Assembly: GCF_039645585.1 (NCBI RefSeq)
Contig: NZ_CP147915.1
Location: 2,294,001 to 2,358,000 of the forward strand
Source of the DNA: Sulfurimonas sp. HSL-1656
Lineage (GTDB): Bacteria; Campylobacterota; Campylobacteria; Campylobacterales; Sulfurimonadaceae
Direction of reading: 5' to 3'
Length of the DNA stretch: 64,000 nt
Below are positions 14,736 to 23,114 of this stretch, piece by piece. Positions within the stretch are counted from its first letter, which is position 1, and every line of letters begins with the position of its first letter. The translations under genes were made by a program, and so were the position numbers. The notes beneath the pieces were generated by a model that saw only the letters and a program-made list of their open reading frames with translations, did no database searches and was not told the DNA's origin.

Positions 14736-14745
14736 AAATTGAATG

Positions 14746-14820
14746 TTACTGTAACAGTAATTAAATGAAACTGAAATAATTTCTGTAGCAGTAATTTTAT
14801 ACGTGTTACTATTTTAGTAA
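14746..14820. promoter_or_regulatory. Immunity operators O1-O3 (left cluster)
   Basis: Three inverted repeats lie between the divergent Cro-like and repressor genes. 14746-14760 is a perfect palindrome, TTACTGTAACAGTAA. 14780-14794 is TTTCTGTAGCAGTAA, two changes. 14806-14820 is TTACTATTTTAGTAA, outer half-sites only. Centre spacings are 34 and 26 bp. The same sequence recurs at 15869-15917. The pattern is that of a repressor/Cro operator array; binding is inferred. Confidence 0.8.
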
Positions 14821-14830
14821 CTTAATAAGG

Positions 14831-15499
14831 ATGAACATGACCCCGGAAAAGAAGGTAGCTGCACTCCTGGATGACTATGGCCGTGGCGGGAAAACAAAAC
14901 TGGCCAAATTCCTGGATGTACCGCCTGTGTACATTACCAGATGGGTCGGTGAGCAGTATGTTGATTACTCGATCCCGAAAGAGTACATCGCAAATATAGA
15001 GAAATTCTTTAATAAACCGCCAGGGTTCCTACTCTCATCAGAGCACATGAGCGAAGTAAGCCTTATCCCTGTTGTTGGAACGGCAGACTGCGGCGGAGGC
15101 GATGTAAACCATTTGCAGGATCGGAGCCGGGTCTGCTATTACAATGGAGAATACTACTCCGATAAGCTGTATTGTGTCATTGCCAGTGGCGACAGCATGT
15201 CCACATTTATCGACAACGGGGACGAAGTGATTTGCGATCCAACGGTTGTGCCAGAGTCTGGTGATATTGTGCACTATCGTATCGGGAACGAAAGTGCGAT
15301 CAAGGTATTCGTTTTCGACCAGGAAGCCAACATGGTGCAGTTTGTGCCGATCAATAGCAGTGACACCTTCAAAACAAAGACGATTAGGCTGGACACCGAG
15401 GGCGACATATTTGATGAGCTGTTCATGGCTAAGGTCGTTGCTGTCAACAAACTATGTTTTTCCAATAGATCCGCAATTCTCAAGATGATAGGAAGATGA
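14831..15499 (+). CDS. CI-type repressor with S24 autocleavage domain
   Basis: 222 residues. The N-terminal ~60 form a helix-turn-helix ('TKLAKFLDVPPVYITRWVG', residues 22-40). The C-terminal LexA/UmuD-like peptidase has a nucleophile Ser in SGDSMS (S122), a Lys in NESAIKV (K158) and a likely self-cleavage bond Cys87-Gly88 in VVGTADCGGG. It keeps the prophage silent and would be cleaved after SOS induction. AAGG is better placed for the second ATG (14837) than for the first, so the true start may be two codons later. Operators lie on both sides of the gene. Confidence 0.9.
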   Translation: MNMTPEKKVAALLDDYGRGGKTKLAKFLDVPPVYITRWVGEQYVDYSIPKEYIANIEKFFNKPPGFLLSSEHMSEVSLIPVVGTADCGGGDVNHLQDRSRVCYYNGEYYSDKLYCVIASGDSMSTFIDNGDEVICDPTVVPESGDIVHYRIGNESAIKVFVFDQEANMVQFVPINSSDTFKTKTIRLDTEGDIFDELFMAKVVAVNKLCFSNRSAILKMIGR

Positions 15500-15500
15500 C

Positions 15501-15752
15501 TTGAAAAAGTTTTTTACTGCTAGGAGGGTCGCAATAGAGTGGCTATTCATTATGGCCTCCCTTATTGCTATCATACTTATAGCTGTGATTGATAGTGGTT
15601 TTTCCGCCGGAATTGCAGGTTTTACGAGACACATTGATGAAGTGCCATTGGTCATGATGGTTTTTTATTCCATCTCCGTTGGAGTAAGACTCACAATATG
15701 GTCCATTAAAACACTGCTTTCAAAAGATAATGAAAAGATATCTGGTTCATAA
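15501..15752 (+). CDS. Small membrane protein next to repressor
   Basis: 83 residues from a TTG start, one base after the repressor stop and preceded by AGGAAG. Two hydrophobic segments (residues ~13-31 and ~47-66) with a short polar loop; basic N-terminus. It is probably expressed in the lysogen with the repressor. Membrane genes in this position are often superinfection-exclusion factors; that is inference. Confidence 0.6.
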   Translation: MKKFFTARRVAIEWLFIMASLIAIILIAVIDSGFSAGIAGFTRHIDEVPLVMMVFYSISVGVRLTIWSIKTLLSKDNEKISGS

Positions 15753-15868: not shown

Positions 15869-15917
15869 TTACTGTTACAGTAACTATTTAAGAAATCTTT
15901 AATTACTGTTACAGTAA
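15869..15917. promoter_or_regulatory. Immunity operators O4-O5 (right cluster)
   Basis: Two identical perfect palindromes TTACTGTTACAGTAA at 15869-15883 and 15903-15917, centres 34 bp apart. The site pair precedes the rightward early operon; a TAAGAT -10-like hexamer at 15914-15919 overlaps the second site. Repressor binding here would silence recombination and excision genes. Confidence 0.8.
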
Positions 15918-15920
15918 GAT

Positions 15921-16115
15921 TTGAAATGCAAGCAGAGAAACCACTTGCAGACGATCCGATTGAAAAAGCATCGTTTCGTCGAGTTCAATGACTTATCAAT
16001 GTCAACAGAGCTTTCAAAAAGGCACACGTGGATCACCGGGATAAAAAGTTCATCGGTCCGAGTGGTGGAGCGGACGGCGCGTGTCTTTCAGAGAGCTTTT
16101 TATGAAGTGGTGTAG
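15921..16115 (+). CDS. Doubtful ORF ending in the tRNA-like element
   Basis: 64 codons from TTG, or 38 from the ATG at 15999. Basic protein; its stop codon TAG lies inside the D-arm side of the tRNA-like element. No good ribosome-binding site. It could be a small early regulator or non-coding sequence. Confidence 0.25.
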   Translation: MKCKQRNHLQTIRLKKHRFVEFNDLSMSTELSKRHTWITGIKSSSVRVVERTARVFQRAFYEVV

Positions 16116-16213
16116 CTCAGTTGGTAGAGCCATGGCCATAGCATTGGGATGAAGTAAATGGGAAGAGCGCGCTCCATTGAAAAGTCGGCGCAGGTTCAAG
16201 TCCTGCTACCACT
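16106..16213 (+). ncRNA. tRNA-like element with abnormal middle
   Basis: The ends are tRNA-like. The acceptor stem AGTGGTG/TACCACT extends to 10 bp with flanking TGA/TCA. The D-arm is GCTC-AGTTGGTA-GAGC (16115-16130). The T-arm is GCAGG-TTCAAGT-CCTGC (16190-16206), with the correct TTCAA signature. Between the D- and T-arms there are 59 nt where about 23 are usual, and no normal 5-bp/7-nt anticodon arm can be drawn. The insert folds into its own small hairpins (e.g. 157-161 with 174-178 of 16,000). No CCA is encoded. GAGAGCTTT repeats flank it (16091 and 16219). Interrupted or decayed tRNA, or a tRNA mimic. Confidence 0.5.
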
Positions 16214-16221
16214 TCACCGAG

Positions 16222-16466
16222 AGCTTTCACTACACGCATACCGAATGGGCATGCCAACGCCCTTTGCCGTGGCTGGTTGGGGATGCGTGTAGTGAGGGCT
16301 TACCCTCGCAAGTTGCCTACGTGCTAAATTTTACCGCCCTATACGAGCATCCATTTCTAGGTGGCGTAAAAAAACAATGGAACCGTTCACTTGCGGAGCT
16401 GGGCTTTGCTCCGCTGGAATCTATATCGGTGCTGCTGTCCGCAACTCACGGCGGCACTACCGATAT
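16222..16466 (+). ncRNA. Structured RNA leader before the pentapeptide gene
   Basis: Direct base-pairing shows several strong elements. An 18-bp stem (16222-16239 with 16283-16300, two G-U pairs) encloses a GGGC/GCCC hairpin, and that hairpin's loop CCAAC can pair with GTTGG at 16276-16280, a possible pseudoknot. GAGGG-CTTA-CCCTC (16294-16307) competes with the foot of that stem. Next is a TTTTAC..GTAAAA stem (16329-16371 region). A perfect 7-bp hairpin lies at 16393-16414. A bulged 13-bp hairpin at 16423-16466 ends 27 nt before the next start codon. I recognise no known RNA family. Confidence 0.5.
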
Positions 16467-16492
16467 GCGTTGAAGTTGCACAAGGAAAGAAA

Positions 16493-17167
16493 ATGAAAAT
16501 TGAACGCTGGGATACGAAAGAAGTTATCTTCGAAATGGAATGCGACTCATGGGTCGACTTGATAAAAGGTGCATTGAAAGCAAAAGTTTCTTTTTACTAT
16601 GCCAACCTGCGCTATGCCAACCTGAGCTATGCCGACCTGAGCTCTGCCGACCTGAGCTATGCCAACCTGAGCTCTGCCAACCTGAGCTATGCCAACCTGC
16701 GCTATGCCGACCTGAGCTCTGCCGACCTGAGCTATGCCAACCTGAGCTCTGCCAACCTGCGCTCTGCCAACCTGCGCTATGCCGACCTGAGCTCTGCCGA
16801 CCTGAGCTATGCCAACCTGAGCTCTGCCAACCTGCGCTCTGCCAACCTGCGCTATGCCGACCTGAGCTCTGCCGACCTGAGCTATGCCAACCTGAGCTAT
16901 GCCGACCTGCGCTATGCAGTTTGGAAGTGGGCTATTGGGAACATGGAAGAACTTAAAAGTATGCAACTTGATAAGTACACGATTGTTTTTAGCTCTACTG
17001 AAATGGCCATCGGGTTCCAGATGCACAGTATTGAGAAATGGAAATCTTTCACAGACAATGAAATTTCAACTATGGATGATGGCGCACTTGAATGGTGGAG
17101 AAAGTGGAAAGAGTTTATTTTTAAAGCAATCGAGCTTTCAGGTGAGGTAAAAGATGACACAGAATGA
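16493..17167 (+). CDS. Pentapeptide-repeat protein
   Basis: 224 residues from an ATG after AAGGAAAG. A ~35-residue N-terminus precedes 21 consecutive pentapeptides of the A(N/D)LxX type (residues ~36-140), which fold as a right-handed quadrilateral beta-helix. A ~80-residue Trp-rich C-terminal domain seen in phage pentapeptide proteins follows. Some family members mimic DNA and inhibit gyrase (Qnr, MfpA); whether this one does is unknown. Encoded by 15-bp DNA repeats. First protein of the rightward early operon, behind a long structured leader. Confidence 0.85.
   Translation: MKIERWDTKEVIFEMECDSWVDLIKGALKAKVSFYYANLRYANLSYADLSSADLSYANLSSANLSYANLRYADLSSADLSYANLSSANLRSANLRYADLSSADLSYANLSSANLRSANLRYADLSSADLSYANLSYADLRYAVWKWAIGNMEELKSMQLDKYTIVFSSTEMAIGFQMHSIEKWKSFTDNEISTMDDGALEWWRKWKEFIFKAIELSGEVKDDTE
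16598..16912 (+). repeat. 15-bp tandem repeats encoding pentapeptides
   Basis: 21 in-register copies of a 15-bp unit (consensus TMTGCCRACCTGMGC). A higher-order 75-bp block (five units) recurs at least twice almost unchanged, which points to recent unequal recombination. The lack of stops in several frames creates false long ORFs on both strands. Confidence 0.9.
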
Positions 17168-17293: not shown

Positions 17294-17389
17294 ATGAAAC
17301 AGGCCGTGGAAAGCATTATCAACTTCTTCAAGCGTGATGATACCCCATTCGATGGGTATCTGGCAAGACTGAACGAAAGGTTGCTGTGA
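17294..17389 (+). CDS. 31-residue phage micro-protein
   Basis: Starts 5 bp after the previous stop, with GAAG-type ribosome-binding sequence, and ends overlapping the next start (TGATG). Amphipathic: MKQAVESIINFFKRDD, then a Leu/Arg-rich end. Kept mainly for the tight packing with its neighbours. Confidence 0.4.
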   Translation: MKQAVESIINFFKRDDTPFDGYLARLNERLL

Positions 17390-17391
17390 TG

Positions 17392-18111
17392 ATGAACGCT
17401 AAACGAATACAAAGAGAATTGAAACAGCCATTTAGTGCAAACGATCTCGAATGGCGTGTACAGGCATCAGGAAAAGCAGGTGATCGCATCTGGTGTCGTG
17501 TTATTGCCTATGTGACAAACAGGGCGATTCAGACGAGGCTTGATAGCGTGTTCGGCATCTTCGGATGGCAGAACGAGTATAAGCCTTCCCCAAACATGGC
17601 TGGTACGATTTGTGGGATCTCCGTGAACGTAGATGGTAAGTGGGTCACGAAATGGGACGGTGCCGAAGACACTGCAATCGAATCCACCAAGGGTGGGCTG
17701 TCAGGATCAATGAAACGTGCAGCAGTTCAATGGGGCATCGGGCGGTATCTGTACGACGTCGACGCTGAATACGCACCGGTTATCACTGTTGACGATTTCA
17801 AGAAATTACAGCGCAACGAGAAAGACGAGTATAAAAAGGCAAAGACAAAGGAAGATGAATATTTCTACTGGAAGCCCCCAGTGCTCCCTGAGCGGTTCCA
17901 GCCAAAGAAGCACGTCACACCTTCCATCGTCAAGAAGATCGAAGAGCTTGCTGAGAAAACAGATACGGATGTGAAAAGCATCTGTGACAACTATGGTGTC
18001 GATGAGATCGTTGACCTTTACGGAGATGAGGCGGGTGAAGCAATCGCGCTGCTGCTCAGAAAACAAAAAGCGGAGGATGAGCATGGAACTGATGAAACGA
18101 ACAAGTCTTGA
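17392..18111 (+). CDS. Rad52/22-type single-strand annealing protein
   Basis: 239 residues. The N-terminal ~125 carry the Rad52-family pattern: 'DLEWRVQASGK', 'AYVTNRAIQTRLDSVFGIFGWQNEY', 'DGAEDTAIESTKGG', 'GSMKRAAVQWGIGRYLYD'. It anneals complementary single strands for phage recombination and concatemer formation. The C-terminal part is charged, with 'ITPSIVKKIEELAEKT'-like helices. Encoded with Gp157-like, NinB-like and SSB genes as a recombination module. Alternative starts lie one and two codons upstream. Confidence 0.88.
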   Translation: MNAKRIQRELKQPFSANDLEWRVQASGKAGDRIWCRVIAYVTNRAIQTRLDSVFGIFGWQNEYKPSPNMAGTICGISVNVDGKWVTKWDGAEDTAIESTKGGLSGSMKRAAVQWGIGRYLYDVDAEYAPVITVDDFKKLQRNEKDEYKKAKTKEDEYFYWKPPVLPERFQPKKHVTPSIVKKIEELAEKTDTDVKSICDNYGVDEIVDLYGDEAGEAIALLLRKQKAEDEHGTDETNKS

Positions 18112-21526: not shown

Positions 21527-21717
21527 CTGTTTTGAGAGTATCTGACTGCCTTAAAAAGGTGAAGTGCTCCCGGGCGACATTCTACCGCCGTATCAAAGAG
21601 GGGCTATACCCAGAGCCATTCTACCAGGGCGGGACGCCCTGCTGGGATGAAGAGGACATTGATGCAGCTATTGAAGCTTTAAAGCATCGAGGAAGTCCGA
21701 CCACCATTGCATCATGA
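21523..21717 (+). CDS. AlpA-type regulator / candidate excisionase
   Basis: 64 residues: a MerR-like winged helix-turn-helix, 'LKKVKCSRATFYRRIKEGLYPEP' (residues 10-32), then 'CWDEEDIDAAIEAL'. AlpA-family proteins pair with P4-type integrases as excisionases or integrase activators. Its last 50 bp overlap the convergent integrase gene tail to tail. It ends the rightward early operon, so it would be made only on induction. Confidence 0.8.
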   Translation: MTVLRVSDCLKKVKCSRATFYRRIKEGLYPEPFYQGGTPCWDEEDIDAAIEALKHRGSPTTIAS

Positions 21718-22846
21718 CCGTGCGCTCTTTCAAGTGCTGCGCGTGGTTATAGATCCCCCTCACCCCTCCTTTCTCATGGGCCATCTGCGCCTCTATCACA
21801 TCCGAATTTATGCCAATCTCATACATGTGCTCCGCCAGGAGCGTCGCCGCTGTATGCCGGAAGCCGTGCGCCGTCTGAACGTCTTTGAAGCCCATGCGCT
21901 TCATGGCGTAATTGAGCGTGTTTTCCGAAAGCGGGCTGTTCTTCGAGAATGGGCTATTAAACACATAGCGCCCCTGTGGCTCCCCCAGCTCCTTGAGCAT
22001 GGCGACGACCTGGCGGGACAGCGGGACGATGTGCGGCCGCTTCATCTTCATTTTTTCCTTCGGGATCTTCCAGGTACCAGCTTTCAGGTCCAGCTCGTCC
22101 CACTCCATAAAACGGATATTTGCCGGGCGGACGAAAACGTGCGGTAGGATACGAAGTGCCTTCGCCGTCGATGCATCACCGCGGTACTCGTCGATCACGT
22201 TGAGGATGGCGCCAAGCTCGCGCGGATCTGTGACGTGGGCGTAGTGGGACGTCTGCATCTTCCCGACGAGAACAGAGACATCGATGTCGTTGACCGGGTT
22301 CCGTCGTGCCTTGCCTGTCGTGACGGCCAGGGTGAAGATCCTGGCGGAGATACCGTGTATCCGCTTTGCCGTCTCCCAAAACTCACCTACCCCCTGGATC
22401 ATCCTGACGATATCTGACGGCTCGACTTCATCGAGATCCATTCTCCCGATCGTGCTGCCAATGTATCTGTCATAGCGCTGCTTCAGCTTATGGTAATACT
22501 TTTCCCCCACCTCGCGCTCGAGACGAGCAAAGAAGTCAGCCGCGGCGTCGTCGACGGTATGCTTCTGTACCTCCACCTTCTTTTCGACAGGCGACGTGCC
22601 GGCGGCGACCATCTCACGGTACTGCGTCCGGAGCTCCCTGGCCCTGGCCAGAGAAACATCCGGGTACTTCCCGAGTGAGACGGTATTGCGCTTCCCGCCC
22701 AGCGTATAGTCGAAGCGCCAAAGCTTCGAGCCTGTCGGCTTTATGATGATGTAAAGCCCGTCGCCGTCGCTGAGGCGCTGCTGGGCTTCGGTCGGTTTTG
22801 TGTTCCTGATCTTCCTATCAGTCAGGGGTGTAACTGGTTTGGCCAC
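21668..22846 (-). CDS. int: P4-type tyrosine integrase
   Basis: 392 residues. N-terminal DUF4102-like arm-binding domain ('LTDRKIRNTKPTEAQQRLSDGDGLYIIIKPTGSKLWR', residues 7-44), a core-binding domain, then the catalytic domain with Arg in 'HVFVRPANIRFMEWDEL', HGFRH near residue 330 and nucleophile Tyr in 'GIYNHAQHLKER'. It catalyses site-specific insertion at the tRNA-Arg gene ~190 bp away, from which it is transcribed inward, as expected for this class. Confidence 0.95.
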   Translation of the reverse strand: MAKPVTPLTDRKIRNTKPTEAQQRLSDGDGLYIIIKPTGSKLWRFDYTLGGKRNTVSLGKYPDVSLARARELRTQYREMVAAGTSPVEKKVEVQKHTVDDAAADFFARLEREVGEKYYHKLKQRYDRYIGSTIGRMDLDEVEPSDIVRMIQGVGEFWETAKRIHGISARIFTLAVTTGKARRNPVNDIDVSVLVGKMQTSHYAHVTDPRELGAILNVIDEYRGDASTAKALRILPHVFVRPANIRFMEWDELDLKAGTWKIPKEKMKMKRPHIVPLSRQVVAMLKELGEPQGRYVFNSPFSKNSPLSENTLNYAMKRMGFKDVQTAHGFRHTAATLLAEHMYEIGINSDVIEAQMAHEKGGVRGIYNHAQHLKERTVMMQWWSDFLDALKLQ

Positions 22847-23038: not shown

Positions 23039-23114
23039 TGGTGTCCCCACGAGGACTCGAACCTCGAGCTAGGCCTTAGGAGGGCCCTGCTTTATCCTGT
23101 TAAGCGATGAGGAC
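23039..23114 (-). tRNA. tRNA-Arg (anticodon CCT), attachment gene
   Basis: 76 nt with encoded CCA. Acceptor GTCCTCA pairs with TGGGGAC through one G-T pair. The anticodon stem GGGCC/GGCCT holds loop CTCCTAA, giving anticodon CCT. The T-arm is CGAGG-TTCGAGT-CCTCG. Its 3' end faces the prophage and integrase, so integration kept the gene intact by supplying an identical 3' segment. Confidence 0.95.

Follow-up and report, generated by a model that had tools for sequence, protein, structure and literature searches.

Bacterial Y RNAs (YrlA) combine tRNA mimicry with a long stem, and in the tRNA-miRNA transcripts of murine gammaherpesvirus 68 a viral tRNA-like element is directly followed by a hairpin. 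GOLLD and ROOL RNAs span 600-800 nt or more and have their own conserved cores. Both occur in phages and prophages as large, structured RNAs, frequently near tRNA islands, and the linker of GOLLD sometimes carries tRNAs (PMC12286853). HK022 putL and putR are non-coding RNAs located right behind a lambdoid early promoter (PMC9378689). A put RNA is ~70 nt long and forms two stem-loops, each early operon having a similar copy of it; it binds the zinc-binding domain of RNA polymerase and brings about antitermination.

The locus described here lies in the window, i.e. the whole 64,000-nt stretch of Sulfurimonas sp. HSL-1656 DNA that was analysed, which is part of a complete 2.56-Mb genome. The window carries a prophage whose integrase gene (21668-22846) adjoins tRNA-Arg(CCT) (23039-23114) and whose early region includes:

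14831-15499, plus strand: gene of a CI-like repressor with an S24 peptidase domain (Pfam PF00717, 5.8e-12; PHROG 4, 4e-18).
15869-15917, plus strand: two perfect operator-like inverted repeats, TTACTGTTACAGTAA, starting at 15869 and 15903, an OL-like pair before the leader (pattern scan).
15920-16492, plus strand: the whole non-coding early leader, with a putative start of transcription; its ORFs have no family match, and its fold reaches z -2.92 (0 of 100 shuffles as good).
16493-17167, plus strand: gene of a pentapeptide-repeat protein, the first after the leader (Pfam PF00805, 5.2e-33).
17389-18111, plus strand: gene of an Erf/Rad52-like annealing protein in the same early operon (PHROG 1097, 8.1e-70).

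Directly after the repressor gene comes a small gene (15501-15752), followed by the operator-like repeats. The pattern scan also found three similar sites across the repressor gene, at 14746, 14780 and 14806; the stretch 15869-15917 matches 14742-14794 at 81% and shares a 22-nt match with the other operator region. Seen together, the clusters 14742-14820 (three sites) and 15869-15917 (two sites) flank the repressor gene with a lambda-like arrangement and a consensus near TTACTGTNACAGTAA. The gene order, repressor, operators, leader, pentapeptide-repeat, Erf/Rad52-like, Gam-like and NinB-like, is that of a lambdoid left early operon, with the structured RNA region in its leader. Within the pentapeptide gene, short DNA repeats that are nearly identical (TATGCCAACCTGAGC...) make up positions 16590-16915, which suggests a recent repeat expansion.

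The preliminary description had placed the structured stretch in a phage early leader without a plausible gene, and this agrees with what we found: the stretch sits behind the operators and ahead of the early-operon genes, and the 98-codon frame overlaps the tRNA-like element described below and has no match in Pfam or PHROG. As these collections give no family, a protein reading of this frame was rejected. The leader occupies ~570 nt between the phage operators and the pentapeptide gene, and no intrinsic terminator-like site was found within 15920-16492. This position invites comparison with put. In a put-like reading the nascent leader would stay with RNA polymerase in cis and allow it to read through early-operon terminators, replacing a protein N; no recognisable N-like gene lies between operators and operon, the leader is placed as HK022 putL, just downstream of an early promoter (PMC9378689), which here is a presumed one, two small hairpins are predicted at the leader's very start, and related prophages also have folded non-coding gaps. 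However, the operators are the only notable similarity found between the two early transcripts, leaving no put-type second copy, and such a function needs neither ~570 nt nor a tRNA-like module; put is ~70 nt long. We regard put-like antitermination as unlikely.

The predicted elements of the leader, from 5' to 3', are:

16007-16099, plus strand: hairpin A, ~90 nt, with copy 1 (16007) and copy 2 (16092) of AGAGCUUU as its base (predicted fold).
16103-16217, plus strand: tRNA-like element B (Rfam tRNA, RF00005, 43.1 bits at 16106-16214).
16222-16300, plus strand: hairpin C, a 17-bp stem (16222-16238/16284-16300) around a short hairpin with a loop able to pair with downstream sequence (predicted fold).
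16254-16280, plus strand: possible pseudoknot within hairpin C, CCAAC (16254-16258) with GUUGG (16276-16280) (sequence).
16294-16307, plus strand: GAGGG (16294-16298) with CCCUC (16303-16307), competing with the base of hairpin C (sequence; whole-leader fold).
16329-16371, plus strand, ends approximate: hairpin D, UUUUACCGCC...GGUGGCGUAAAA (predicted fold).
16393-16414, plus strand: hairpin E, GCGGAGC (16393-16399) with GCUCCGC (16408-16414) (predicted fold).
16423-16466, plus strand: hairpin F, ending 27 nt before the pentapeptide ATG at 16493 (predicted fold).

The preliminary description had singled out the 245 nt from 16222 to 16466 as highly structured, and every element that it named is present. 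On the plus strand the minimum free energy is -93.2 kcal/mol compared with -77.4 +/- 4.9 for 200 dinucleotide shuffles (z -3.24, 0/200 as good); many GC-rich stretches of the window reach lower absolute folding energies, so that only the z-score of this segment is unusual. Some details changed. The main stem of hairpin C, reported as 18 bp, is real and comprises 17 contiguous perfect pairs, two of them G-U, which read as A-C on the opposite strand. Inside it, GGGC (16247-16250) pairs with GCCC (16259-16262) under the loop AUGCCAAC, and the proposed CCAAC/GTTGG pseudoknot is available in the sequence. The competing GAGGG/CCCTC hairpin overlaps the base of the main stem and does form in the whole-leader fold, and the two further strong hairpins, E and F, are likewise real, the last beside the pentapeptide start as described. 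Dense structure had been put at ~360 nt; the structure stands, but its length is ~460-570 nt, since it begins earlier, with hairpin A.

The minus strand of the same 245 nt also folds better than its shuffles (z -2.76, 2/200 as good), and folding energy alone therefore prefers the plus strand only slightly. Such two-sided folding would fit a DNA-level element, e.g. a cruciform, replication or packaging site; the G-U pairs of the 17-bp stem and the tRNA arms, however, make sense only in plus-strand RNA, and we consider a DNA-level role very improbable. Regulation in cis of the pentapeptide gene, at the level of translation or mRNA stability, would fit the closeness of hairpin F to the start codon and the existence of alternative folds. 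Yet the ribosome-binding region of this gene is left unpaired in the predicted leader folds, and ~570 nt with a tRNA-like module would be excessive, making such regulation a rather poor candidate.

The alternative folds arise from AGAGCUUU, which is self-complementary when G-U pairs are allowed and occurs at 16007, 16092 and 16220, with a related strand closing hairpin C. In the lower-energy topology hairpins A, B and C are separate, while in the alternative fold copy 2 pairs with copy 3 around element B and copy 1 pairs with the end of hairpin C. The two folds of the leader region, at -114.8 and -110.6 kcal/mol, are only 4.2 kcal/mol apart, so on paper the region can switch between the two topologies.

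Element B had been noted as tRNA-like, and its Rfam score lies well above the RF00005 gathering score of 29. It has a 10-bp acceptor-type stem and canonical D- and T-arms, and a domain of ~60 nt stands where the anticodon arm and the variable loop would be. An anticodon stem of 5 bp with a 7-nt loop is missing, no CCA directly follows the discriminator, and ARAGORN called no tRNA at this element. As modelled, element B is a true tRNA-type fold unable to decode, because the ~60 nt replace its anticodon arm. The acceptor stem runs 3 bp past tRNA length, and these extra pairs should hinder RNase P. The closest host tRNAs share generic arms only, by which an origin from a host tRNA was ruled out. 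The retained tRNA arms could instead mark a decaying or evolving phage tRNA cluster of functionless remnants; hairpin A holds a class II D-arm-like stretch, and in large phages the tRNA arrays include hairpin-like variants of tRNAs next to the tRNAs themselves. Relics, however, should lose pairing, and here the stems are intact and stable, with acceptor and T-stem fully paired; compensatory differences separate element B from its counterparts in two viral contigs (L107 and L462, see below), and Rfam and ARAGORN found no other tRNA in the early region. We hold the relic explanation to be somewhat more doubtful than put-like antitermination.

Searching for relatives by sequence yielded little. 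Among Rfam families only tRNA reached its gathering score, in agreement with the absence of a family match reported before; integron attC sites, group I/II introns and tmRNA were ruled out by sequence features and by the lack of an Rfam match. The segment 16222-16466 is single-copy in its own genome, and no DNA homologue of it was found in 228 family genomes, a phage collection or a plasmid collection. In the family, and in a sample of ~400 genomes of the order, no further insert-bearing tRNA-like element of this pattern was found, the one additional match spanning two ordinary tRNAs. With the Erf protein as query nothing was found in viral or genome contigs, nor with the repressor in viral contigs. 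The suggestion of a possible new ncRNA class holds as far as structure, non-coding character and absence from Rfam go, but a single-copy element with no homologue found does not establish a class. The early leader is real, structured, tRNA-bearing and apparently non-coding, and belongs to no known family.

Used as a query against genomes, the repressor did lead to related prophages in the order, which often carry a long, strongly folded non-coding gap at or near operator-like repeats. One such gap (L033) has a 23-bp stem and z -3.25, and three others (L081, L083 and L091) reach z -4.0, -4.7 and -4.3 (30 shuffles each), values that are inflated in several gaps by the operator-like repeats included in them. 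No significant or convincing sequence similarity was detected between the window and the leaders of these prophages, and the word GGATCACCG common to the window and L091 was dismissed as coincidence. On another contig with a related repressor (G180), a non-coding gap holds a 117-nt hairpin with a 25-bp stem (L035:7192-7308).

Elsewhere it is the anatomy that recurs, while the sequence does not. A pattern of D-arm, 40-70 nt and T-arm, run against IMG/VR, brought up numerous phage tRNA-like elements whose anticodon domain is enlarged, and a long-hairpin score was then computed for the sequence 3' of each. In four of these (L107, L173, L290 and L178) the insert-bearing element is directly followed by a long-stem hairpin of 100-127 nt; the window likewise has tRNA arms, an enlarged anticodon domain and a long-stem hairpin directly 3'. 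The downstream hairpin scores of the window, L107, L173 and L290 are far above the rest, L178 being next; L407 and L326 have high scores too, but no acceptor stem. The anatomy thus recurs above background in unrelated phage contigs, in 4/162 viral insert-tRNAs; of random positions in the same contigs 19/12000 reach a score of 13.5, and of dinucleotide shuffles 0/2450 reach 13. Long hairpins are in excess behind ordinary phage tRNAs as well (11/1103 at 13.5). We take the likeness of the window, L107, L173 and L290 as an anatomical grouping, not as proof of descent.

In a homologue of L107, L462 (86% over 112 nt), the long-stem hairpin comes ~70 nt later. Upstream, in the same orientation, L462 encodes a protein identified by eye as repressor-like, with an S24-like C-terminus. 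Aligning the window with L107 and L462 kept all 16 acceptor, D and T pairs, with 3 double changes; this count was equalled in 40/500 shuffles, and three sequences carry little weight. The score between the window insert and L107 has rank 2/319, L239 scoring higher, and a specific kinship with L107 was not established; the link between the two rests mainly on generic tRNA arms.

Other unusual viral tRNAs were encountered along with these. Several phage tRNAs (L099, L114, L125, L132, L137, L148, L151, L167 and others) carry, in the anticodon stem's 5' strand, a ~40-nt insert made of a GNNA-capped hairpin and a single strand of the ACAGCAAU type. Where this was checked by eye, an anticodon stem of 5 bp, with an Asn, Lys or Arg anticodon, re-forms once the insert is taken out; the inserts are possibly mini-introns or extra arms. 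In a second recurrent family (L111, L130, L141, L143, L154, L158, L164, L171, L175 and L178) most members have a long variable region and a CAU-type anticodon loop lengthened by GGUGAAGGACCAAAUCGC-like sequence. Acceptor stems of 17-21 bp were seen in tRNA-like elements of phage tRNA arrays (L272:1908-2010, L307:4481-4586 and L333:7296-7384), and an element of the same group lies on the minus strand in L219, 3' of the tRNA at 550-625.

Parts of L107 and L462 match Acidovorax phage AP1, and this match forms the bridge to a separate RNA, here called R1. In AP1 a promoter-like TTGACA...TACAGT and a folded leader of ~830 nt (z -4.5, 20 shuffles) lie behind a repressor gene and two small genes, and the domain common to AP1 and L107 occurs in many enterobacterial phages. 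R1 consists, in order, of a closing stem, the hairpin GCGCA-GGCUGA-UGCGC, a variable middle and the hairpin GCCGG-AGAUCAGCA-CCGGC, the two hairpin loops being complementary; in most members a variable insert enclosed by a AAGAGCAUUG/CAGUGCUCUU stem, sometimes with a T-arm, lies directly 5' of it. Copies are located at:

L468:1202-1326; L469:1202-1355; L470:1202-1355; L471:1502-1719; L472:1082-1258.
L477:1005-1147 and 1434-1543 (P1); L478:1009-1110 (HK620); L479:1070-1197 (HK629).
L467:2580-2737 (AP1); L107:5419-5552.

Over 15 sequences 97.7% of cells pair, and 12/24 pairs show double changes, compared with 2.3 +/- 1.3 in shuffles and at most 4 in slid controls. A covariance model built from the 15 members detected two phages outside its training set, HK620 (82.2 bits) and EPP-1 (L480, 66.7 bits). 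Phages with R1 include P1, HK620, HK629, AP1, KP591P1, ep3 and ZC08, and a 243-nt ep3 query overlapping R1 matched 145 phage records, some of them solely through the domain that lies 5' of R1. In HK620 R1 is in the late leader, after pR'/qut and before the annotated late terminator; P1 has its two copies downstream of its tRNAs, KP591P1 has R1 ahead of tRNAs and ZC08 within its tRNA array. R1 has no match in Rfam 15 and was not seen in 60 relatives. As judged from these comparisons, R1 is an RNA family of its own, well supported, apparently uncatalogued and present in many phages. It is supported by covariation, occurs in the classical model phages P1 and HK620 and is directly testable in laboratory strains of Escherichia coli. 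Among open-access papers neither the anatomy nor R1 was found described; an earlier description in subscription papers is possible.

The window was ruled out as a member of R1 by a best score of 4.3 bits with filters off and the absence of the core motifs. Like the window RNA, R1 is modular: a long-stem domain, which in R1 has the complementary hairpin loops, comes after a domain that is variable or tRNA-like. R1 is placed in early or late leaders or next to tRNAs, the window RNA in an early leader. A tentative reading, which we would not call probable, puts the window RNA, as a divergent member, in a large class of modular phage RNAs that is uncatalogued and has R1 as its best-conserved branch. 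Such a class would have a tRNA-shaped or variable module and flanking strands that pair either around the module or into a neighbouring long-stem domain, and it would serve in early and late leaders of phages with distant hosts. For the leader, membership of a class finds support in the anatomy only.

The reading that we favour, at a probability of roughly 45% and ahead of put-like antitermination and a relic tRNA cluster, is that of an early ncRNA that is structured, undergoes processing and carries a tRNA-like module unable to decode. The folded gaps of the related prophages and the recurrence of the anatomy in other phage contigs lend this reading indirect support. We infer transcription, processing and a function in trans of the leader RNA as follows. 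At induction of the lambdoid-type prophage, the repressor-controlled early promoter would give rise to the long non-coding leader, which would fold into tandem hairpin modules around the non-decoding tRNA-shaped module, with alternative pairing of the AGAGCUUU copies permitting two global folds of similar energy. tRNA-processing enzymes may recognise and cut the tRNA-shaped module and double-strand-specific RNases may open the long stems, freeing at least one stable structured RNA from the operon transcript to act as a separate RNA. Its role in trans might be to bind a host protein or to serve as a decoy for enzymes acting on tRNA. If the leader does yield a processed tRNA-mimicking RNA, this would be a new strategy in phage early takeover, and the anatomy provides a search handle for similar RNAs overlooked by gene annotation.

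Among the known systems, Y RNA (YrlA) was ruled out by the lack of an Rfam match and of a TROVE (Ro) protein in the host genome. The resemblance to the murine gammaherpesvirus 68 transcripts is one of analogy only, as that system is eukaryotic and unrelated in sequence, and processing of the window RNA is hypothetical. Like HK022 put, the leader would be a non-coding RNA behind a lambdoid early promoter; it follows operators, with a putative promoter and start site, and a similar copy on the second early operon was not found. GOLLD, cited before as a precedent, fits in location but not in match, since neither GOLLD nor ROOL matched with its Rfam covariance model even at E up to 5. Unlike either of them, the window RNA consists of local hairpins strung around a single non-decoding tRNA-like module.
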